A stretch of 41,690 nucleotides of DNA from Xanthomonas cannabis pv. cannabis. Lineage in GTDB: Bacteria > Pseudomonadota > Gammaproteobacteria > Xanthomonadales > Xanthomonadaceae. The translations under genes were made by a program, and so were the position numbers. Shown here in pieces: positions 30,997-41,516 of the stretch (within the stretch, counting starts at the first letter, position 1; each line of letters opens with the position of its first letter). The notes under the pieces are model-generated. The model searched no databases. It worked only from the letters and a program-made list of their open reading frames with translations, and had not been told where the DNA came from. The stretch covers positions 1 through 41,690 of the forward strand of contig NZ_JSZE01000045.1 of the NCBI RefSeq assembly GCF_000802365.1, in the 5' to 3' direction.

Positions 30997-31154
30997 CGTT
31001 GGGGCAGGCGGAACTGGCGGCTCCGCGGAAACTGGTCCACTCCATGAGCGAGGGCCGTGCCGGGCAGGCGGGGCAGGGCAGCGGTGATGTCTGCGTGCCC
31101 GGCCATCGAGGGCGGGTGACGCTGTGACGGCAGGGCTTGGGGCACAATGCGCCG

Positions 31155-31904
31155 ATGCAGCTGACAGACCTGAGCAGCCGGGTGATTCCGGCCACCGACT
31201 ACCGCCGCGAGCGCTGGCGCAATCAATTGGGGTGGACGCGCGAGATCCTGCGGCTTGGGGACGCCGAGCACTGGGCGCTACGCCTGTCGATCGCCGAGAT
31301 CGAGCAGGACGCTGTGTTTTCTGCGTTTCCGGGCGTCGACCGCGAACTGGTGCTGCTGCACGGTAACGGCATGCGGCTGCAGTTTGGCAACGGCGAGCAC
31401 GCCGCCGATGGTGATGCGGGCCATGGCGATGCTGCAGGTGCAGATGCAGATGCAGATGCAGATGCAGGCAGAGATACAGGTCAGAGCGGCGACCTTCTGA
31501 TCAACGCGGCTGCTGGCGTGGCCTCCCCTCGTGCGGGCCGTCGTGTGGCGTTGCTGCCGCCTTACCAGCGCGTCCGATTTGCGGGCGAAGAGACGGCGAG
31601 TGCCGAACTGCTCGACGGGCCGACCCAGGACTTCAACCTGATGTGGCGGCGCGATCTATTGCGGACCGAGCTGCTGCATCGGCCCCTGGTCGGCACCATG
31701 CTGTTTTTCGCCGACCCTTCCAACGCCTGGGCGATCCATTTGCTGGCCGGTCAGGCCAGTTTTGGCCGCGATAGTGCGCTGCCGCCGTTGGCGGCCGGCG
31801 ATACCGCCTGGCTGAGCGCCGCGACACGCAGTCGCTACGTTCTGGATGGCGGTGGCGAGTTGCTGGCGATTCGGGTGAGCCCGTATCCGGGCGCGGCCGA
31901 GTAG
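31155..31904 (+). CDS. HutD-family cupin-like protein with acidic repeat insert
   Basis: The 249-residue product matches the HutD/Ves family: RVIPATDYRRERWRNQLGWTREI at the start (read in pieces), LRLSIAEIEQDAVFSAFPGVDREL, and the later DFNLMWRRD plus a C-terminal LLAIRVSPYP. HutD is linked to histidine-utilisation loci in some bacteria, but no hut genes are in this window, so the link here is weak. It is longer than the roughly 190-residue family norm because of an acidic insert (about 80-112) rich in D, A and G. The insert contains a GCAGAT repeat at 31440-31466. It converges with the reductase gene; only 9 nt separate the stop codons. Confidence 0.8.
   Translation: MQLTDLSSRVIPATDYRRERWRNQLGWTREILRLGDAEHWALRLSIAEIEQDAVFSAFPGVDRELVLLHGNGMRLQFGNGEHAADGDAGHGDAAGADADADADAGRDTGQSGDLLINAAAGVASPRAGRRVALLPPYQRVRFAGEETASAELLDGPTQDFNLMWRRDLLRTELLHRPLVGTMLFFADPSNAWAIHLLAGQASFGRDSALPPLAAGDTAWLSAATRSRYVLDGGGELLAIRVSPYPGAAE
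31440..31466 (+). repeat. GCAGAT hexanucleotide repeat (4.5 units) in the hutD-like gene
   Basis: Four perfect GCAGAT units plus a half unit encode alternating Ala-Asp from residue 96 to 104. The unit length is a multiple of three, so gain or loss of copies keeps the reading frame. Degenerate DA/GD codons on both sides suggest past expansions. Confidence 0.9.
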
Positions 31905-31913
31905 GCCACAGGC

Positions 31914-33581
31914 TCAGTACACGTCGCGGCGGTAGCGGCCGCTGTCCACCAGCGCCTGCCTGAGTTCGGTTCCTAAAATGGTGTCGAGTGCGCGATCGAC
32001 GTCGGGTGCCATGCCGCGCAGGCTACCGCAGAGATAGAGGCGGGCGCCGCGGTCGACCCACTGGCGCAAGGTGTCGGCAGCGGCGGTGAGTACATGTTGT
32101 ACGTAGCGCGGCGCGGCGTCCTGGTCGCGCGAGTACACCAGATCGAGACGGGCGATCCAGCCCTCACGCCGCCACTGCTGCAATTCTTCGGTGTAGAGCG
32201 CGTCGTATGCGGCATTGCGTTCGCCGAAGATCAACCAGTTGTTGCGCGCGCCCGCGGCAATGCGTGCGACCAGATGCGCGCGCAACCCGGCGATGCCGGT
32301 GCCATTGCCGATCAGCAGCATGGGGTGCTCCGGTACCGGTGGATGGAAGCCCGGATTGCTGCGCACACGCAGCGCGATGTGTGCACCGATCGGCGCATGC
32401 AGGCAAAGCCAGGCGCTGCCGACACCTGGGCGTCCATCGGCCTGCCGGTGTTCGCGGATCAGCAGTTCGGCGTGTCCTTCCTCGGGGATCGATGCCAGCG
32501 AATACTCGCGATGCGGCAACGCAACCAGGTTGTGCACCAACGCGTCGAGGTCTGCATTGAATATCGCGGCATCGGCATCGGCATCGGCATCGGCATCGGC
32601 ATCAACATCAACATCAACGTCAACATCAACATCGTCAGGCAAACGCGCGCCGCTGAGCCAGTCGCGCAGCGGGCGGCCGTCGATCATCCGCGCGCCATCG
32701 CATCGGTGCTGCTGCAACCAGGCCTCCACCTGCTCCGGCGGATTTTGCGGGGCGATCTCGGCGATGTCGCCAGCCTGCCAGTGCGGCAGCGGCCCCTCGC
32801 AGGGCGTGAGCCGAAGCCGATGGACTGCTGCGCCGGCACTGCCAGGATTGACGTGGCAACGGTCGCGTAGCTGCCAGGCGGCATAAGTCGGCAGGCTCCA
32901 GTTCGGCTGCGCATCGAGCGCAGGTGTGAGTGCCGCCAGATGGTGCTGCCACCGTTTCAGCGCAAGCGGGTCGGCATTGTCGACCTCGATGCGCTCGAAC
33001 AGACGGACGCCGCCACGCGCCTGCAGGCGATGATCGAGGCGACGACCGAACGCGCAGAACTGCGCGTATCGCCGATCGCCCAGTGCCAGCACCGCGTACT
33101 GCACGGCTGCCAGATCCTGCCCGTCGTCGCTGAGCCAGTCGCGCTCCGCTACCTGTGCGTGATCCGGCGCATCGCCCTCGCCGGTGGTGCTGACGATGCA
33201 CAGCAACCGCGGTACGCGCGCCAGTTGCTCTGCACTGACCGCCTCCAGCGGCAAGGCGTGGGCGCCAATGCCTGCCAACTGGAATGCCGCTGCGCTGCGT
33301 TCGGCAAGCTCGCGTGCGAACCCGGTCTGGCTTGCCCACGCGATCAGCAGGCTGCTGCCGCGCCCGTGCCGCGCACCGGTCCGGGTGCGGCGGCGGAGGA
33401 AGATGGCGGTGCACAATCCTGCATAGCTCGCCACGCCAAGGCCGGCCCACTGCCAGCGATGCGGAGTGGGCGCGCTCCACCATGTGCCAGCATGCAGGCT
33501 GGCAAACCATGCGCCCAGCGCGGCCAGGGCGAGCAGCAGCGCGCCATTGCCAAACCAGATGCGGGCAGGTGCGCCGCTCAC
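31914..33581 (-). CDS. Membrane-anchored diflavin reductase (CysJ-like)
   Basis: The 555-residue protein has two N-terminal membrane helices (about 8-29 and 44-63). A flavodoxin-type FMN domain follows (about 75-215, with WASQTGFAREL and STTGEGDAPDH), then a connecting/FAD domain with REYSLAS and an NADPH domain with LLIGNGTGIAGLRAHL and VYSRDQ. It ends RRDVY as CysJ does. It should take electrons from cytosolic NADPH and pass them to a membrane partner, most likely the PepSY protein of the same operon. The start is GTG in a GTGA overlap with apbE. The connecting domain carries an 11-unit hexamer repeat encoding Asp-Val and Asp-Ala pairs (residues 317-338). Confidence 0.88.
   Translation of the reverse strand: MSGAPARIWFGNGALLLALAALGAWFASLHAGTWWSAPTPHRWQWAGLGVASYAGLCTAIFLRRRTRTGARHGRGSSLLIAWASQTGFARELAERSAAAFQLAGIGAHALPLEAVSAEQLARVPRLLCIVSTTGEGDAPDHAQVAERDWLSDDGQDLAAVQYAVLALGDRRYAQFCAFGRRLDHRLQARGGVRLFERIEVDNADPLALKRWQHHLAALTPALDAQPNWSLPTYAAWQLRDRCHVNPGSAGAAVHRLRLTPCEGPLPHWQAGDIAEIAPQNPPEQVEAWLQQHRCDGARMIDGRPLRDWLSGARLPDDVDVDVDVDVDADADADADADAAIFNADLDALVHNLVALPHREYSLASIPEEGHAELLIREHRQADGRPGVGSAWLCLHAPIGAHIALRVRSNPGFHPPVPEHPMLLIGNGTGIAGLRAHLVARIAAGARNNWLIFGERNAAYDALYTEELQQWRREGWIARLDLVYSRDQDAAPRYVQHVLTAAADTLRQWVDRGARLYLCGSLRGMAPDVDRALDTILGTELRQALVDSGRYRRDVY
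32568..32633 (-). repeat. Eleven-unit hexanucleotide repeat in the reductase gene
   Basis: On the plus strand there are six GGCATC units (32568-32603), then AACATC, AACATC, AACGTC, AACATC, AACATC (32604-32633). The coding strand gives Asp-Val five times followed by Asp-Ala six times, in frame. The 66-nt tract is perfect in length register with one substitution, so it is a candidate for copy-number variation. Confidence 0.95.
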
Positions 33582-34552
33582 GACGCCGCCAGGTGCTGCT
33601 CGAACGCGGGGCTCATCGCTTCGCTCAGGGCGCCGTCCTGTCGGGTCAGAAAGCGCACGGCCAGGTTGGCGTTGCGTGCGTAGGCCAGCCCGGCATCGGC
33701 GCCAAGGACGGTCATTGCAGTGGCCCAGGCATCGGCATGCATCGCATCGCACGCGAGCACGGTCACGGCAGCGGGCGCATGCGCGATCGGGGAACCCGTG
33801 CGCGGGTCCAGCGTGTGCGTGTAGCGCGTTCCGTCCGCGTCGAAACGGTGCCAGCGATCGCCGGAGGTGGCCACGGCCAGTCCGTCCAGGGCGACTACGC
33901 GGGGTGGCAGTGCAGCGCCAGCCTCTTCATCGGGCGCGGATTCGACCAGCACGCGCCAGGCGCTGCCATCGGGCTTGCGTCCATAGCCGAACAACTCGCC
34001 GCCGACCTCGATCAAGGCGCTGGCAATATCGGCCTTGATCAGCGCGTGGTGCACACAATCCACGCCGTATCCCTTTGCGATGCCGGACAGGTCCAGCGCG
34101 ACGGCACCTGACTGCAGCAGCCGCTGGCCATCCAGCTCCAGTCGCCGCCACCCGCAACGCAGGCTGGCCAATGCGATCTGCTCGGGGGAGGGCACGCGTC
34201 GCCGGCCGCCGGAAGGGCCAAAACCCCACAGCTCGACCAGCGGCCCGATGGTCGGATCGAACGCGCCACCGCTGGCCTGCGCGATCTGCAGCGCGGCGTG
34301 CAGCACGCGCTGGAAATCCTCGGGCAAGGGATGCCAGCCTCCCGCAGCAGCACGGTTGTAGCGGCTGATGTCCGAGCCCGCTTCCCAGGTGCTCATCTGC
34401 GCCACCACCCGGTCGAGCGCAGTCTGGATGCCTGCATGCAGGGGATGCAGGTCGCGCGTGCGTGGCGCCACCAGCTTCACGCTCCAGGTGGTGCCCATGC
34501 TGCGGCCGCCCAGGGTGGCAAGCGTTGCGTCTGCGGGAATCGGTGAGTTCAT
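33578..34552 (-). CDS. apbE: ApbE-family FAD:protein FMN transferase
   Basis: ApbE enzymes attach FMN covalently to a Ser or Thr of extracytoplasmic redox proteins. The 324-residue protein shows the family landmarks GRSMGTTWSVKL near the N-terminus, DLSGIAKGYGVD, EVGGELFGYG, TSGDRWHRF and HTLDPRTGSPI. Unlike many ApbE proteins it has no visible signal peptide or lipobox, from the chosen ATG (34552, MNSPIPADA) or from starts further upstream. That is odd if its target is periplasmic. It lies between the DUF4198 gene (359-nt gap) and the diflavin reductase gene (4-nt overlap); the neighbouring DUF2271 protein is the likely FMN acceptor. Confidence 0.9.
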   Translation of the reverse strand: MNSPIPADATLATLGGRSMGTTWSVKLVAPRTRDLHPLHAGIQTALDRVVAQMSTWEAGSDISRYNRAAAGGWHPLPEDFQRVLHAALQIAQASGGAFDPTIGPLVELWGFGPSGGRRRVPSPEQIALASLRCGWRRLELDGQRLLQSGAVALDLSGIAKGYGVDCVHHALIKADIASALIEVGGELFGYGRKPDGSAWRVLVESAPDEEAGAALPPRVVALDGLAVATSGDRWHRFDADGTRYTHTLDPRTGSPIAHAPAAVTVLACDAMHADAWATAMTVLGADAGLAYARNANLAVRFLTRQDGALSEAMSPAFEQHLAAS

Positions 34553-34911
34553 ACGTGGACTGGTGGGCGGGCGCTGCGGCAGGAACGCCATGGTGAGGTG
34601 CGGCGCAGCCGATTGCATCCGCATGCTGGCGGTTCGACGATCAATGCCCTCTGCTGTTCGCATCCTTCCAGCATCCCGGCGTGGACCGTTGCGACGCGGA
34701 CGGTAGCGCGGGGCGACGGCTCCCTCGTGCACGGTCCTGGTATGCCACCAGAACCGTTGCGCGCGCTGCCGTCACTGCGGCCAAGAAAGCTAGAAAGCAG
34801 TCGCCAGGTGGGCATCGGCCCTGCACATGAGCCGAAAGTGCACGAGGACACGCAGATGCCGAGCACCGACCGCGTCTGCCGGCTGGTGCGTAGCAATGGC
34901 GTCAGCCGCTC
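34553..34911. other. Gap between the DUF4198 and apbE genes
   Basis: This gap of 359 nt lies inside an otherwise tight minus-strand gene run. I see no gene, strong hairpin or known site. A second promoter for apbE and the reductase gene could lie here. In-frame sequence upstream of the apbE ATG does not look like protein. Confidence 0.4.
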
Positions 34912-35715
34912 TTATTGCGGCAGCACTTCCAGCGTTGCCACATAGCCCAGGCGACGCTGCTTGGCCTGCGGCAGCGAGGTCCTGGTGTCTTCGCTGGTGG
35001 TCTCCAGCCAGTACATGCCCGCTTCCGGCCAGGTCACGCTGAAGTTGCCCTTGGCGTCGGTCTTGAGCTTGATTTCATGTTGCGCATCGCGATAGCGGGT
35101 GCCGCCTCGCACGATTTCGATCTCGAGGCCGGCTGCCGGCTTGCCATCCAGCTGCAGGGTGAACTGCGCCGCTTCGCCGGCCACCAGATCGTTGGGGTGG
35201 GTGACCGGTAGCAGCTCGATGCCCTTGCCGGTGGGCTTGAATACGGTGGTGGTGGGAGCGCCGCGGGTAACGAAGGTCTCTACGCGGTTGAGCGATTGCG
35301 AGACCTGCAGCTCCTGCGCATTTTTCGGCACGTCGGTGGCGAAGCTGGCTTCGTTGCCGCGCCAACGCTTGGGCTTGCCGTCTTCCTTCCAGCTGGCGAA
35401 CAGGCCGGCGTTGACGATGCCGAGCTTGTAGGTGCCCGGCTGGGTGAGTTGCAGGTCGAACACGCTGCGGTATTTGCCGGTTGCCGGATTTTCCGGCTTG
35501 AGCGTGCTGCCGTCCGGCGCAGTGATGCTCAGGTTGTCCAGGCGCAGCGGCACGTGATTGAAGTAGAACAGGTCGTTGGACACCGCCGCATCGACGGTGA
35601 TCCACGGGGCTTCGCCGGCCAGCACGGTCTGCGACGGCAGCAGCCAGGCCTTGTGGGCCAGCGCGCTGACAGGAAGTGCGGCAAGCATGGCGATCAGGGC
35701 GAGCGAACGTGTCAT
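34912..35715 (-). CDS. DUF4198 periplasmic protein
   Basis: The 267-residue product has a signal peptide ending ALPVSALA, so the mature protein should start with His21 ([10 protein letters not shown]), a conserved feature of the family. The rest is beta-rich: [33 protein letters not shown] and a C-terminal carboxypeptidase-like repeat with [22 protein letters not shown] (read in pieces). DUF4198 proteins occur in metal-uptake contexts; an N-terminal histidine could bind metal. AAGGAG sits before the ATG at 35715. It lies 160 nt after the DUF2271 gene. Confidence 0.85.
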
Positions 35716-35875
35716 GACAACTCCTTGAAGACGATCAGGTCGATGGGGCGCGTGGTTGAGCAGCGCGCTGCGGCGCTGCGGGGGCAATAGGCCGGCGAGG
35801 TAGAGCGTGTTTGCTGCGAGGAAACCGCGTGCGTCCTGCGCGCCGCTGCATGCCTGGCCGCGGCGCGCTCGCGCA

Positions 35876-36391
35876 TCACGGTTTGGCAGTCAGGGTGACC
35901 GTGCCCAGCTCGCTGCTGCCGCTGGCCTTGGCGGATTGCGCAGACGTGGCCGGCCAGGTGAAAGGCACCTTGACCAACTCACGCCCGCCCACTTCGCGCG
36001 CGGCCTCCACCACCAGCGTGTATTGCCCGGCCGGCAGCGCCTTCAGCGCGCCCTTGGTGTCGGAGAACGACAGCGCGTGCGCGCCGGCCGGGCGGGTCGG
36101 GCCGGTCACGCCATCGACCGGCACGGTCAGGGTGCGGCCGGACTTGCGCCACCACTGGCGCAGGTCCGGCAGCCACTTGGTGCCGTGGCCTTCGGCGGTG
36201 TCCTTGGACTGGTACCAGACCGCCAGGTTGGCCGCGACTTTCTGATCGGCGCCTTCCAGCCAGATCGCCACGTACGGGCGGTGATATTCGGCGACATTGA
36301 GCTTGGGGATTTCGACGTTGATGTCGAGCGTGGCCGCATACGCCGGCATGGCGAGCAGGCCACTCAGGGCGATGGTCAGGGTGGCGCGCAT
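35876..36391 (-). CDS. DUF2271 periplasmic protein with candidate FMN-attachment site
   Basis: This is a 171-residue secreted protein with a signal peptide ending MPAYAA. The domain includes [20 protein letters not shown] and [10 protein letters not shown], then [14 protein letters not shown], all typical of DUF2271. The segment [11 protein letters not shown] at 93-103 resembles the covalent-flavin motif DGxSGAT recognised by ApbE; Thr99 would be the acceptor. An apbE gene lies two genes downstream and a PepSY protein gene directly upstream (21-nt gap). That makes a flavin electron carrier in the periplasm the favoured role. The flavinylation is inferred, not shown. Confidence 0.85.
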
Positions 36392-36412
36392 GATCGTCTC
36401 CGGTAACGAGGG

Positions 36413-37051
36413 TCAGTGGATCAACAGCAAGGCAAGCAGGAGCGGCACCAGCAAACCGAGGCCGACCAGCGGCCAGGTCATGCTGCGCTGACGGGCATGT
36501 AGGTGCAGCAGGAACAGGCCGGTGATGCAGAACACCAGGCAGGCGATGGCGAACACGTCGATGAACCAGCCCCAGGCTGGCCCCGCGTTGCGGCCCTTGT
36601 GCAGGTCGTTGAGGTAGGCGATCGCGCCACGCGTGGTGGATTCGTATTCGATCGCGCCAGTGTGGCGGTCCAGGCTCAACCAGGCATCGCCGCCTGGGCG
36701 GGGCAGGGCCACGTACACCTCGTCCGCGGACCACTCGCCGCTGCGCGCGCCGATGCCGGTGTCCAGTTCGCGCTCCAGCCAATGCGCCACGCGTGGCGGC
36801 AGTGGTGCGTCGCCCTCCTGCGTGTTGCCCAGGGTGGTCAGCAGCGCAGGCGGCAGGGTCAGTGCGCGCTGCTCGGTCGATGGGCTGGCTTCGATGCGTG
36901 CAGCGTGATTCAGGGTCAACCCGGTAAGCGTAAACAGCAGCATGCCGATCAGGCACAACGCCGAACTGATCCAGTGCCACTGATGCAGCATGCGCAACCA
37001 GAATCCGCGGCGTTGCCGGGCGTTGGCGACAGCGTCGTTCGAGGTGGACAT
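36413..37051 (-). CDS. Small PepSY-associated transmembrane protein
   Basis: The 212-residue protein has one N-terminal helix (about 27-47), a periplasmic PepSY-type domain (about 55-160, with [17 protein letters not shown]) and two C-terminal helices (about 163-187 and 192-211). Histidines flank the helices: HQWHW at 23-27, LNH at 48-49, DLHKG before helix two and LHLHARQ after it. This is the pattern expected for heme ligands in PepSY reductases such as FoxB/PiuB. Those proteins are usually longer or fused to a flavodoxin reductase; here the two parts are separate genes in one operon. Confidence 0.87.
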
Positions 37052-37057
37052 GCGGGT

Positions 37058-37816
37058 CTATGCCACGTCCGCAGAGGCAGACGGCTGCGGGTGCGCCTGC
37101 CGCAGGGCCACCTGGCCCAGCAGTGCGCGCAGGCGCGGCTGCGGTGCATTGGCCAGCAGCGGCGTGAGCTGACGCAGGAAGCCGGCGTGTCCCCCGGCGA
37201 TGGCGCGACGCATCCACTGTTCGGCCAGATCCAGTTCGCCACTGTCTGCCAGCAAGGTGGCATAGCTCGCCTGGCCACGGAAATCGCCGGCTTCGGCGGA
37301 GCGGCAATACCAGTGGCGCGCGGCCAGCGGATCGGGGCTGCAGGCCAGGCCCTGGTCGAGATAACGTGCCAGAAAGTTCATCGACTTGGCGTGGCCACGC
37401 TCGGCCGCGCGGCGATACAGCGCCAGGGCCTGCGCGTGGTCCTGCGCCACACCCCGCCCGGAGGCGTACAGATGCGCCAGGTTGTACATGCCCCACACCA
37501 GGTCGTGCTCGGCGGCGCGGCGGTACCACAAAGCCGCCAGCATCTCGTTGGCGGCAGTGCCAAACCCCAGCTCATGGCAGCGGCCCAGTTGATTCATCGC
37601 CTCCGGATGCCCGCCATTGGCGGCCACTTCGTACCACAGCATTGCCAGGGCCGGGTCTGCGGCGATGCCGCGCCCTTCGGCATAGATCTGGGCGAGCAGC
37701 AGTTGCGCGTTCGGATCGTGACCGGCCGCAGCCCTGCGCAGCAACGCAATGGCCTGGTCCGGCTGCGTGCGCAGCAGGCCGATCCACTGCGCAGGGTCCA
37801 GTGCAGGCTCAGACAT
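37058..37816 (-). CDS. Sel1-like/TPR repeat protein
   Basis: The 252-residue protein consists of about five Sel1-type repeats. Examples are [28 protein letters not shown] (read in pieces), [26 protein letters not shown] and [26 protein letters not shown]. There is no signal peptide, so it is cytoplasmic and probably a protein-binding scaffold. It overlaps the piuC end by 8 nt and lies 6 nt before the PepSY gene. Sel1 proteins beside piuC are a recurring arrangement in my recollection. Confidence 0.88.
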
Positions 37817-38495
37817 CGGCCCATTGCCGCAGCAGGTTGTGATAGACGCCGGTGAGCTGGACCAGCGACGGATGGCCGGGGGTGTCCTGTGTGAGGCGCC
37901 TGATCGAGACATCCAGTTCGAACAACAGGCGGCGCTGCGCATCGTCGCGCAGCATGCTCTGGGTCCAGAAAAACGACGCCACCCGCGTACCGCGTGTCAC
38001 GGGCATCACCTTGTGCAGGCTGGTGCCGGGGTAGATCACCAGGTGCCCGGCCGGCAACTTGACCGACTGGGTGCCGTAGGTGTCTTCGATCACCAGCTCG
38101 CCACCGTCGTAACTATCCGGGTCGCTGAGAAACAGCGTGCCCGACACATCGGTACGTACCGGTTCGGCGCCACCGCGACTGCGGTCGTACCGCACCGCGT
38201 TGTCGACGTGATAGCCGAACGACTGCCCGCCGCTGTAGCGGTTGAACAACGGCGGATAGATCCGGCGTGGCAATGCCGCCGAAAAGAACGTGCTGCTGCG
38301 CGAGAGTGCCTCCAGCACCAGCGCACTGGCGTCGCGCGCCACGGCGCTGTCTTCGGGCAGCTGCGCATTGTCCTTGGCCTGTGCCGATTGATGGCCGGCG
38401 GTGATGCGGCCGTCTGCCCAATCGGCCGCGTCCAGTCGCGCGCGCAACGTGTGCAGCTGCGCGGGCGTCAACACATCGGGAATGGGCAGCAACAT
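37809..38495 (-). CDS. piuC: Fe(II)/2-oxoglutarate-dependent hydroxylase, PiuC/PKHD type
   Basis: The 228-residue oxygenase has the metal triad His96, Asp98 ([10 protein letters not shown]) and His161 (SLHKVMPV), plus Arg171 in [12 protein letters not shown] as the 2-oxoglutarate anchor. A C-terminal helix region follows (to LLRQWADV). PiuC-type proteins are encoded beside TonB receptors and induced by low iron; the substrate is unknown. The start at 38495 ([10 protein letters not shown]) lies 47 nt after the receptor gene, so they are co-transcribed. Confidence 0.95.
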
Positions 38496-38542
38496 GCGGT
38501 GTTCTCCACGCCGTCCGTGCCAGCCGGACGGCGTGCCGGGGG

Positions 38543-40861
38543 TCAGAAACTGAAGGTGGCGTTCAATACTGCCGAGCGGCCGTCGCCCGGCAATGCCCAG
38601 CCGTTTCCGGCGGTGACGGTGCCTGCGGCATTGACGGTCAGGTTGTTGCGCACGCTGGTGTAGTACTCCTTGTCGAACAGGTTGTTGACGTTCAACTGCA
38701 GGCTGAGCCAGTCGTTGACGCGTAGGCCGACCATCGCCCGGTGCACCCAGTAATCGTCGGTCTTGATGTAGGCCGCGCCCGACGCATTGTTCGGATAGAA
38801 GCCGCCCTGATAGGTGACGCCATAACCAAAGGTCCACTGGTTGAGCGAATAGGTGGTCCAGATGTTGCCGGCATTGCGCGGGGTCTGCACCAGTTCGCGT
38901 CCGGCGACCGGATCGCCGGTGAGGCTGGCGGTGCGATTGGACACGCTCTGCAGCACTTCGCTGTCCAGGAAGGTGTAATTGGCGAAGATCGACCAGCGGT
39001 CGGTCAGGTACCCGGCCGCACCCAGCGCGATGCCGTCCACGCGTGCCTTGCCGTCCAGCACCTGCTCGGGAATCAGCGGGTCGCCGCTGTTGACCTTGTA
39101 GTTTTCGCGCTCGTTGCGGAATACCGCCGCGGTCAGCGCCAGGCGCTCATCCAGCACGTCCCACTTGCCGCCCAGTTCGATGTTGACTGCCGTTTCCGGC
39201 GCCACATTGCAGTTGGCACCGGCAGTGGCAGTGGCGATCGGGGTGCACGAGCCGTTGACCGAGGCCTTGGAGGGCGTCTTGCTGTTGGCGTAGGACAGAT
39301 ACAGGCTGGCGTTATCGGCCGGCTTGAACACCAGGCCGGCACGATAGGAGAACAGGTCTTCTTCGTTGCCGGCCGGGAAACCTGCGGCAACGCCGGTGAT
39401 GCCACCGGCGGCGTTGACGGTGTAGGTGGTGCTATCGCCTTCGTTGTGCTCGTAGCGCCCGCCGACATTGAGCATCCACTGCTCGTTGAACTGCAGCGTA
39501 TCGAACAGGTAGATCGCCTGGTTGGTCAGGCTGCCCTTGCTGTGAGCGGTGCGGAAATAGTTCTGCGGGCCGGTCCAGATGTTGTACGGATTGTCGAAGC
39601 TCTGCAGCGGGTAGGTGATGCCTGTGGTGGAGCCGTCGGCATTGCGGAAGGTCGTACCGCTGTCCAGCTCGAAGTCTTCCTTGCTGAAGGCCACGCCGGC
39701 GACGATGCGATGCTCGATGGCGCCGGTGCGCAGCGTGGCGGTCAGATCGGTCTGGCTGTGCGCAATGAAATTCTCGGTCTCGCGCACCAGGCCGCGCGGG
39801 CCGCTGTTCGGATTCCAGGTGGCGGGCGGCTGGCTGACACAGGTACGACCGGTGTACGGGTCGGTGCCATCGGGCAGGCACCAGGTGCCCTGCAGCGCGG
39901 TGGCATTGAGGCTCTGGTCCACCCGCTGCAGGCGCGCCAGGCTGCGCAGTTTGAGGGTGTCGCCAAAATCCATGTCCAGCACGCCGGTGAGCATGTCCAC
40001 GTCGATCTCCTGACGCGAGGTATTGCGATAACCGTAATAGGTTTCGCGGTCCACGCCCGGCAACGGGCCGTCGTTGAACGGGCTGAGCGCAAACGGCACG
40101 CCGTACTGCGGCAGGTTGTTGTCGTGCTGGTGCAGGTAGCTCAGGGTGAAGCGGGTGTCCGAGCCCAGGCCGAAGGCCACCGACGGCGCAAAGCCCCAGC
40201 GGTGACGGAATTCTTCGTCGCGGCCCGGCACGTCCTGGGTGTGGCCCATCGCGTTCAGTCGCACGGCGGCGCCGTTGTCGAAGTCGTGGTTGCTGTCGAC
40301 GGTGAGGCGGCCGTAGCGGTCGCTGCCGCCACCGATCAGCACGTTGGTGAAGTCGCCCTGGCCGGCCGTCTTGGTCACCAGATTGATGTTGCCGCCGACC
40401 GAGCCGGCACCGGACATGGCCGAATTGGCGCCGTTGATCAGCTCCACCGCTTCCAGGTTGAAGGTATCGCTGCGGCTGTATTGCGCGCTGTCGCGCACGC
40501 CGTCGGTGGTGATGTCGCTGCTTGCCGTGAAGCCGCGCAGGTTGATGCTGTCGCCATAGCCGCCGCCGCCTTCGCCCGCACCGAAGGTGATGCCGGGCAG
40601 GGTGCTCAGCACATCGCGCAAGGACAGCAGATTCTGCTGGTCCATGGTCTGCTTGGTGACCACGGTGATGGTCTGCGGCGTATCGCGCAGGGCTTCGGTG
40701 TACTTGGGCGAGGACGGCTTCTGCGCACGCTCCTGCTGTACCCGGATGGCATCCAGATCCACTGCACCCGGAGGGGCCGGCGCGTCGCCAGGTTGGGCAA
40801 GGGCGGGGGCGGACAGCGTCAACAGCACGGCCGAGGTGAGCGGGGAAATCCTGGGAGTCAT
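38543..40861 (-). CDS. TonB-dependent siderophore receptor (Fiu/PiuA-like)
   Basis: The 772-residue outer-membrane receptor has a signal peptide ([15 protein letters not shown]), a possible TonB box in VDLDAIRV, and a plug domain (about 50-175). The plug contains [41 protein letters not shown] and [13 protein letters not shown] 22-strand barrel then ends in aromatic ATFSF, the assembly signal. No STN signalling domain is present. Similarity of pattern is to catecholate receptors of the Fiu/PiuA group, consistent with piuC next door. The ATG at 40861 lacks a strong ribosome site. A promoter with a Fur-like box lies about 230 nt upstream. Confidence 0.93.
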
Positions 40862-41090: not shown

Positions 41091-41120
41091 ATCTTAAATG
41101 CAAATCATTCTTCTTTGCAA
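41091..41120 (-). promoter_or_regulatory. Putative sigma-70 promoter for the TonB receptor operon
   Basis: On the minus strand TTGCAA (41120-41115) and TAAGAT (41096-41091) are separated by 18 nt, an acceptable -35/-10 pair in the only AT-rich stretch of the gap. The Fur-like box overlaps its spacer and -10 element, as expected for a repressed promoter. Confidence 0.5.
41094..41112. promoter_or_regulatory. Fur-box-like operator
   Basis: The 19-nt sequence TTAAATGCAAATCATTCTT matches the E. coli Fur consensus GATAATGATAATCATTATC at 12 of 19 positions, including the run AATCATT. It overlaps the putative promoter of the siderophore receptor. Binding of Fur with Fe2+ would repress the operon; the match is by eye. 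Confidence 0.55.
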
Positions 41121-41186: not shown

Positions 41187-41516
41187 TCAGCGGTCGTCGC
41201 GGGTCCAGATGCCGTCGTGCTCGCGCTTGACCGGAAACTTGGGCACGGCAGTGTACGCGGGTGCACACAGCGGGCGGCCATCGCGGATATCGAAGCGCGC
41301 ACTATGCAGCTGGCACTCGATGGTACCGGCCACCGGGTCGAAGCTGCCGGGCGACAGCTCGTAGTCTTCATGGCTGCAGCGGTCTTCCAGCGCGTACAGC
41401 TCGCCGTCGAGGTTGAACACCACGATGGGCGCGTCGGTCACTTCATCCCATACGGTTTGCAGTTCGCCGGGCAGCAAGGCTGCGCTGGCGCAGACAAAGG
41501 TCCACGTCTCGCTCAC
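41187..41516 (-). CDS. Rieske [2Fe-2S] ferredoxin-like protein
   Basis: The 109-residue protein carries the Rieske cluster ligands Cys47 and His49 (CSHEDY) and Cys68 and His71 (CQLHSARFD). It resembles the stand-alone ferredoxin subunits of non-heme iron oxygenases, but no oxygenase gene is next to it. There is no signal peptide. The start codon is GTG, overlapping the stop of the upstream acetyltransferase gene in a GTGA arrangement, so the two are coupled. Its partner is unknown. Confidence 0.92.
   Translation of the reverse strand: MSETWTFVCASAALLPGELQTVWDEVTDAPIVVFNLDGELYALEDRCSHEDYELSPGSFDPVAGTIECQLHSARFDIRDGRPLCAPAYTAVPKFPVKREHDGIWTRDDR

Follow-up and report, generated by a model that had tools for sequence, protein, structure and literature searches.

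An ApbE without recognisable leader beside a DUF2271 protein predicted to be exported in a receptor and flavin reductase locus of Xanthomonas cannabis

The locus described here raises the question of where a covalent flavin would be placed on a protein that is exported. It lies in a 41,690-nucleotide stretch of Xanthomonas cannabis pv. cannabis (assembly GCF_000802365.1, contig NZ_JSZE01000045.1, positions 1 to 41,690; the window), in which eight minus-strand genes encode a siderophore receptor, a PiuC-type dioxygenase, a Sel1-repeat protein, a PepSY protein, DUF2271 and DUF4198 proteins, an ApbE flavin transferase and a flavodoxin/FNR reductase. The cluster class itself is known; what stands out here is the apparent compartment mismatch between a leaderless ApbE and a DUF2271 with a Sec-type leader. 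The two genes concerned are:

35876..36391, minus strand: DUF2271 protein with a Sec-type leader and a predicted flavinylation site, Thr99, in DGVTGPT (PF10029, 1.3e-52)
33578..34552, minus strand: ApbE flavin mononucleotide (FMN) transferase without recognisable signal peptide or transmembrane (TM) helix, with the MGT motif at residue 19 (PF02424, 5.4e-82)

The window ApbE gave a best 19-residue hydropathy of 1.22, with no TM helix and no hydrophobic stretch before the MGT motif; by hydropathy, neither the signal peptide nor the lipobox that marks an extracytosolic ApbE was found. The Ser/His/Asp active-site segments (triad identity from PMC12052999) are present in an alignment to 5mgy and 3pnd that was read by eye, and judging from its domain and these catalytic residues the protein is a predicted flavin adenine dinucleotide (FAD):protein FMN transferase. 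Relatives were taken from a named set (the top 80 of the 247 relatives retrieved with PepSY as query), from order-level regions and from a phylum-level set of 40 regions outside the order with about 6 kb on each side, which is less biased than the named set. Five records occur both among the named and among the order-level loci, and these duplicates sit in the leader, histidine, gene-order and motif counts where the sets overlap. Leaders were scored with a home-made hydropathy rule, not SignalP, in slightly different forms between counts. ApbE scores of at least 1.8 were taken as leadered and 1.3–1.8 as borderline.

With the refined rule the module ApbEs of 127 distinct loci comprised 11 leadered, 9 borderline and 107 lower proteins (12, 9 and 111 at 132 loci before five duplicates were removed). 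Five loci without a recognisable MGT motif were dropped from the scoring (L065, L069, L070, L071 and L144); by eye L040 and L055 are leadered despite a low score, and L153, scored as leadered, looks like a proline-rich RVLIP type. Outside such modules 28 of 33 ApbEs were leadered, the 33 being the best-scoring matches of the phylum sample plus six paralogues and not a random sample. In loci L047 and L048 the ApbE MGT motif comes just 15 codons after the DUF4198 stop, and eleven loci carry an in-frame stop 17–21 residues before that motif, so that no in-frame leader can be encoded in any of these. On a tree of 105 ApbE proteins (near-copies omitted, leader states assigned partly by eye, 6 rows unassigned) the leader requires at least three state changes against a shuffled mean of about 14, with gain and loss indistinguishable. 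Leadered rows include Rhodanobacter (L148) and Luteibacter (L053, the same as L149), adjoining leaderless Dyella; Caulobacter ApbEs score 1.2–1.5. A reading of the window made from its sequence alone (the sequence-only reading) had included an ApbE in the split arrangement; it overlooked the absence of a leader, by which a periplasmic client is left with no obvious enzyme in its compartment. No mention of a missing leader on a DUF2271-linked ApbE was found in the accessible portions of the open-access literature searched.

Two side observations concern ApbE. Many leaderless ApbEs outside Xanthomonadaceae start with a short RV(L/I)(V/I)P-like element (L122, L153, L161, L164, L172, L180), and in two same-order genomes (L196, L197) an ApbE adjoining an FMN_bind gene also scores leaderless.

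The DUF2271 proteins look exported. Under one hydropathy rule a leader-like N-terminus (score at least 1.8) was found in 117/120 DUF2271 and 117/118 DUF4198 proteins, and in 0/74 PiuC, 1/37 Sel1 and 12/114 ApbE proteins; in a wider DUF2271 set 31 of 40 score at least 1.8 and 39 of 40 at least 1.5. Thr99 is invariant in 50/50 aligned proteins. A flavinylation-like motif was found in 117/120 DUF2271 proteins against 12/659 other operon-type proteins (PepSY 0/118, DUF4198 1/118, ApbE 2/114, reductase 5/110, receptor 4/88, PiuC 0/74, Sel1 0/37), and DUF2271 is the only protein of this operon with a flavinylation-type motif; a motif scan for another client among the operon's proteins returned DUF2271 alone. 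Among the 120 relatives the motif reads TGPT in 75, SGPT in 3, SGAT in 26 and TGAT in 13, with none in 3. None of the 78 distinct GP forms is accompanied by an ApbE scored as leadered, and two have a borderline one; the GP/GA trait needs three changes on the ApbE tree, so the association of GP forms with a leaderless ApbE is confounded by descent. The flavinylation loop, residues 94–99, was modelled with pLDDT below 50, and a Foldseek search started from the DUF2271 model returned nothing at E 0.001 or lower. Export of a folded, flavinylated DUF2271 by the Tat route was considered and rejected, the twin-arginine pattern being absent from 120 DUF2271 proteins (L032–L151). In L069, L070 and L071 DUF2271 and ApbE share one reading frame; these DUF2271 parts have no flavinylation motif, and in L069 and L071 at least the fused protein begins with a leader.

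The source genome, listed as 100% complete, contains one ApbE and one DUF2271; family searches gave no FMN_bind, NqrB/RnfD or DUF3570 match, and a genome search for a second ApbE elsewhere returned only the one. For any flavinylation of DUF2271 here, this leaderless enzyme is thus the sole ApbE found. DUF2271 occurs in 43 order-level genomes, of which 32 were checked: exactly one ApbE was found in 25 and FMN_bind in 6.

The other features of the locus are:

38543..40861, minus strand: TonB-dependent siderophore receptor, PiuA/Fiu type (PF00593 and PF07715; NCBIfam TIGR01783 above cut-off)
37809..38495, minus strand: PiuC/YbiX-type PKHD Fe2+/2-oxoglutarate dioxygenase (PF18331, PF13640; NF003975 at 345 bits, cut-off 180)
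37058..37816, minus strand: Sel1-repeat protein (PF08238, 4 repeats), with an 8-bp overlap with the PiuC end
36413..37051, minus strand: PepSY_TM_like_2 protein with three TM helices, a probable heme carrier (PF16357, 4.4e-83)
34912..35715, minus strand: DUF4198 protein with a Sec-type leader (PF10670, 1.8e-62)
31914..33581, minus strand: membrane-anchored flavodoxin and FNR reductase, like CysJ and cytochrome P450 reductase (PF00258, PF00175; GTG start)
41097..41115, minus strand: 19-bp Fur box some 250 bp ahead of the receptor start codon (14/18 of the X. campestris Fur consensus)
32567..32634, minus strand: in-frame hexanucleotide repeat, (VD)n(AD)n, in the reductase linker (Tandem Repeats Finder)

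All eight minus-strand ORFs (open reading frames), from 40861 down to 31914, are present with domains above Pfam cut-offs, and on recheck their coordinates and start codons held and no internal stops were seen. The run of eight same-strand genes from a TonB receptor to a CysJ-like reductase in the sequence-only reading is thereby confirmed; the domains it assigned lie where it put them, and only the Sel1-repeat protein had been left unnamed. Chance or mis-called genes were ruled out, all eight being above cut-off and their order conserved in relatives. The best NCBIfam match of the receptor is Fiu, at 406 bits under that model's cut-off of 686; the PiuC domain searches were run on the protein read from 38447. 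Intergenic distances from receptor to reductase are 47, −8, 6, 21, 160, 359 and −4 bp, the last being a 4-bp overlap in which the reductase GTG start lies over the ApbE stop. From the sizes of these gaps one transcript across the eight genes is plausible, though it would have to span the 160- and 359-bp gaps. The 47-bp spacing and the domain matches place receptor and PiuC among the PiuA/PiuC (CciT/CciO) pairs. Upstream of the Fur box lies a same-strand Rieske-type ferredoxin gene (41187–41516), in sequence not common to all Xanthomonas loci shown; just downstream of the reductase is a convergent HutD-domain gene (31137–31904) with an in-frame hexanucleotide repeat (QM run) at 31433–31467.

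The PepSY protein matches PF16357, which together with PF03929 is the family named for PepSY-like proteins of flavinylation-associated clusters (PMC8238504), and its gene lies in one cluster with those of DUF2271 and ApbE. Its AlphaFold model (pLDDT 93.7) has three hydrophobic helices with a domain between the first and second. Six histidines are nearly invariant in 119 sequences (His23 116, His26 119, His49 118, His151 119, His185 117, His212 113), which would be enough for two bis-histidine hemes of the kind published for FoxB (PMC11334425). The model matches FoxB (7abw) only weakly, at row 18 of the match list, and searches of PDB sequences with PepSY, DUF2271 and DUF4198 relatives gave no credible match. 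The reductase combines flavodoxin and NAD-binding domains behind one clear N-terminal TM segment, and its closest solved relatives are CysJ (6efv, 1.4e-42) and cytochrome P450 reductase. The repeat lies between its flavodoxin and FNR halves; this linker stretch, flanks included, is mostly 12–18 residues in 108 aligned proteins, and in most listed Xanthomonas loci it is 17 to 120 residues with differing dipeptide runs (HA, MD, GA, GT). Electrons would run from NADPH (reduced nicotinamide adenine dinucleotide phosphate) to ferric siderophore. For the path drawn in the sequence-only reading, the PepSY histidines and the DUF2271 motif support the components, and the order of transfer is the one that the protein families suggest; its suggestion that DUF4198 may handle metal gained no support in this analysis, and as a whole that interpretation is partly supported.

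Iron control is indicated at the first gene. The Fur site at 41097–41115 is the sole place in the window with at least 12/18 matches to the Xanthomonas Fur consensus (14/18), and first-order Markov shuffling of the upstream 400 bp, repeated 2000 times, never gave a score as high. Against the E. coli Fur consensus the site does not stand out: it has 11/19 matches, and 39 of 207 400-base stretches of the window reach at least 11. A Fur box with 14–15 matches was found in all 24 Xanthomonas loci scanned (L104 and L140, both titled Xanthomonas, were omitted from the scan), in a poorly conserved surrounding stretch. The window box is letter-identical (19/19) to that of XCC2772 in Table 1 of PMC1790865. 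XCC2772 is one of seven X. campestris receptor genes shown there to be switched on when iron is scarce and held down by Fur, with its box 244 bp before the start (PMC1790865). Because of the identical box and the similar distance (244 versus about 250 bp), XCC2772 is very probably the orthologue of the window receptor gene; on the strength of that orthology, the iron-starvation response of the first gene has probably been measured already by others. By its box the first gene is a predicted member of the Fur regulon, and the identity with a Fur-repressed receptor gene supports the link to iron made in the sequence-only reading.

The locus is probably, though well short of certainly, a PiuA/PiuC-type receptor module under Fur control that is linked with a split siderophore reductase spanning the membrane, with an FMN-carrying DUF2271 loaded by the ApbE of the operon. 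Fur would repress the cluster, and a ferric siderophore, probably of the catecholate type, would enter the periplasm through the PiuA/Fiu-type receptor. The anchored flavodoxin/FNR protein in the inner membrane would take electrons from NADPH and hand them on, by way of the hemes in the small PepSY protein, to an FMN carried on Thr99 of DUF2271 in the periplasm. Once reduced, this FMN-DUF2271 would in turn reduce the ferric siderophore, probably together with DUF4198, and set Fe2+ free; PiuC would have a cytosolic role, acting on the ligand or in its breakdown. The operon ApbE would put FMN on DUF2271; having no leader, it would most likely do so on the cytosolic side, either ahead of Sec export or while export is under way. 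We infer the siderophore type, the covalent FMN on the window DUF2271, the site of flavinylation in the cell, and the roles of DUF4198 and Sel1.

How far receptor and reductase belong together was judged from gene order. The five-gene order PepSY-DUF2271-DUF4198-ApbE-reductase is kept in 77/80 named loci, in 30/40 order-level regions (DUF2271 occurs in 43/151 genomes order-wide) and in 14/40 phylum-level regions; at the phylum level a DUF2271 match was found in 70/398 genomes at E 0.001, 65 of them above cut-off. Receptor and PiuC, counted in the named set if on the same strand and at most 6.5 kb upstream, also precede the five genes in 50 named loci, 27 of which have Sel1. In the phylum-level set the pair was directly upstream on the same strand in 0/40 and nearby in another arrangement in 9/40. 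From these counts the reductase core appears as a stable unit, and a front of receptor, PiuC and Sel1 as typical of this family. The exact eight-gene arrangement occurs in 23 named loci (22 Xanthomonas, 1 Pseudoxanthomonas).

These counts bear on a different view of PepSY, in which it acts chiefly as a permease, or as a reductase of Fe(III) or metals in general, untied to the neighbouring receptor's siderophore. PepSY proteins near receptors have been proposed as siderophore permeases in Alteromonas (PMC7190382), and of the 77 named loci with the five genes 27 have no receptor and PiuC upstream (three having less than 3 kb of sequence there), nor do any of the 14 phylum-level ones. Three TM helices and conserved histidines nevertheless fit electron transfer better than transport, and a flavodoxin/FNR gene belongs to the five-gene order found in 77/80, 30/40 and 14/40 loci. 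A function of this kind is less likely than not, though a serious alternative.

In the split siderophore reductase so pictured, flavinylation would take place in the cytosol. The cytosolic ApbE would read DxxTG[A/P]T on the DUF2271 precursor and attach FMN from cytosolic FAD, and SecYEG would pass the modified chain. That most sampled DUF2271 modules with their own apbE flavinylate and then export is proposed tentatively, at clearly less than an even chance. SecYEG can pass bulky attached groups. DUF2271 of A. ursilacus was flavinylated by its ApbE with both made without leaders in E. coli (PMC8238504), so cytosolic flavinylation is chemically possible. The route of FAD to a periplasmic ApbE was called obscure in a 2025 review (PMC12052999), in which the Salmonella ApbE is described as needing the periplasm for its role and seven residues as sufficient for recognition.

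Several observations weigh against flavinylation of this DUF2271 by this ApbE. The window motif is TGPT and so lies outside the published [S/T]GA[S/T] pattern (PMC8238504); since the modified Thr is invariant even so, the locus is filed on sequence as a variant of the flavinylated PepSY system. Two same-family genomes (G101 and G141) keep a single leaderless ApbE and have no DUF2271 or FMN_bind match. Their ApbEs (L227, L228) lie directly after receptor and PiuC with the active-site segments present in both; either these genomes lost the client, or their leaderless ApbE acts on something else. FMN_bind was looked for in seven genomes without DUF2271, and all five besides G101 and G141 have it; in the four whose ApbE start was read (L229–L232), ApbE has a lipoprotein-type leader.

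The two genomes suit the view that the leaderless ApbE modifies some other protein in the cytosol, with DUF2271 unflavinylated here or binding flavin non-covalently. Cytosolic ApbEs with cytosolic clients are documented (PMC12052999). Thr99 and the DxxTGxT frame are kept, however, which would not be needed in an unmodified protein; the operon's other proteins lack the motif, and the three known client families searched for are absent from the source genome. We regard this view as rather doubtful. That ApbE is periplasmic after all, its leader missed through a wrong start or its exit non-classical, is quite improbable: some loci have long in-frame upstream extensions (the window ORF opens at 34732) and the home-made rule left 9 of 127 proteins borderline, but the loci with 15 codons or an in-frame stop leave no room for a leader, similar rules find leaders in 28/33 other ApbEs, in 117/120 DUF2271 and in 0/74 PiuC proteins, and the window ApbE has no TM segment.

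Flavinylation ahead of export may be set beside known systems. Clusters of PepSY (PF16357) with DUF2271, DUF4198 and ApbE were catalogued in 2021 by Meheust et al., with proposed periplasmic iron reduction (PMC8238504). Leaderless ApbE and FMN-binding genes were dropped from the extracytosolic count of that survey, and the window ApbE is leaderless; the DUF2271 motif of the survey, as given above, also differs from the window's. Clusters of this kind, their iron link and DUF2271 flavinylation are in print (PMC8238504, PMC11334425, PMC7190382, PMC3751524, PMC12004947). The same five genes in the same order form the Fur-repressed Caulobacter crescentus operon CC3059-3063 (CCNA_03155-03159; PMC3751524). 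Fur binds the CC3059 promoter, and the ratios printed for CC3059-63 in an iron/fur microarray table run from 12 to 51, the column headings lying outside the accessible portion (PMC3751524); mutants with transposons in this locus lose fitness in ethylenediaminetetraacetic acid (EDTA; PMC12004947). The C. vibrioides ApbE (L122), like that of the window, has no clear leader (borderline at 1.51, proline-rich). In contrast to the window, no receptor, PiuC or Sel1 was found before the five genes in L122, and a receptor-dioxygenase pair, cciT-cciO, lies elsewhere in the Caulobacter genome (PMC12004947).

A receptor paired with a PiuC-type dioxygenase is also seen in E. coli fiu-ybiX, and in P. aeruginosa PiuB the PepSY, flavodoxin and FNR parts are fused in one chain. 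The piuA-piuB/piuC-piuE genes of P. aeruginosa and cciT-cciO of Caulobacter likewise place a receptor beside such a dioxygenase, with Fur boxes reported for both, but the P. aeruginosa piuA-piuB and piuC-piuE operons are divergent. FoxB is a PepSY-type membrane protein too, of 360 residues against 212 for the window PepSY, which would need the separate reductase and DUF2271. The Klebsiella pneumoniae cytosolic ApbE is leaderless as well; it acts on a fumarate reductase that is soluble and cytosolic (PMC12052999), whereas the only recognised client in the window has a Sec-type leader.

Receptor homologues of such pairs have been linked to cefiderocol resistance (PMC12004947), and one locus here joins a receptor/dioxygenase pair to a reductase that may release the iron. 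With a leaderless ApbE and an exported sole recognised client, either Sec takes a protein across the membrane with its covalent cofactor attached or there is an ApbE client yet to be recognised. If flavinylation does precede export, FAD would no longer be needed in the periplasm, and the leadered ApbEs of Rhodanobacter and Luteibacter would represent a natural relocation of the enzyme, the client keeping its leader as before.

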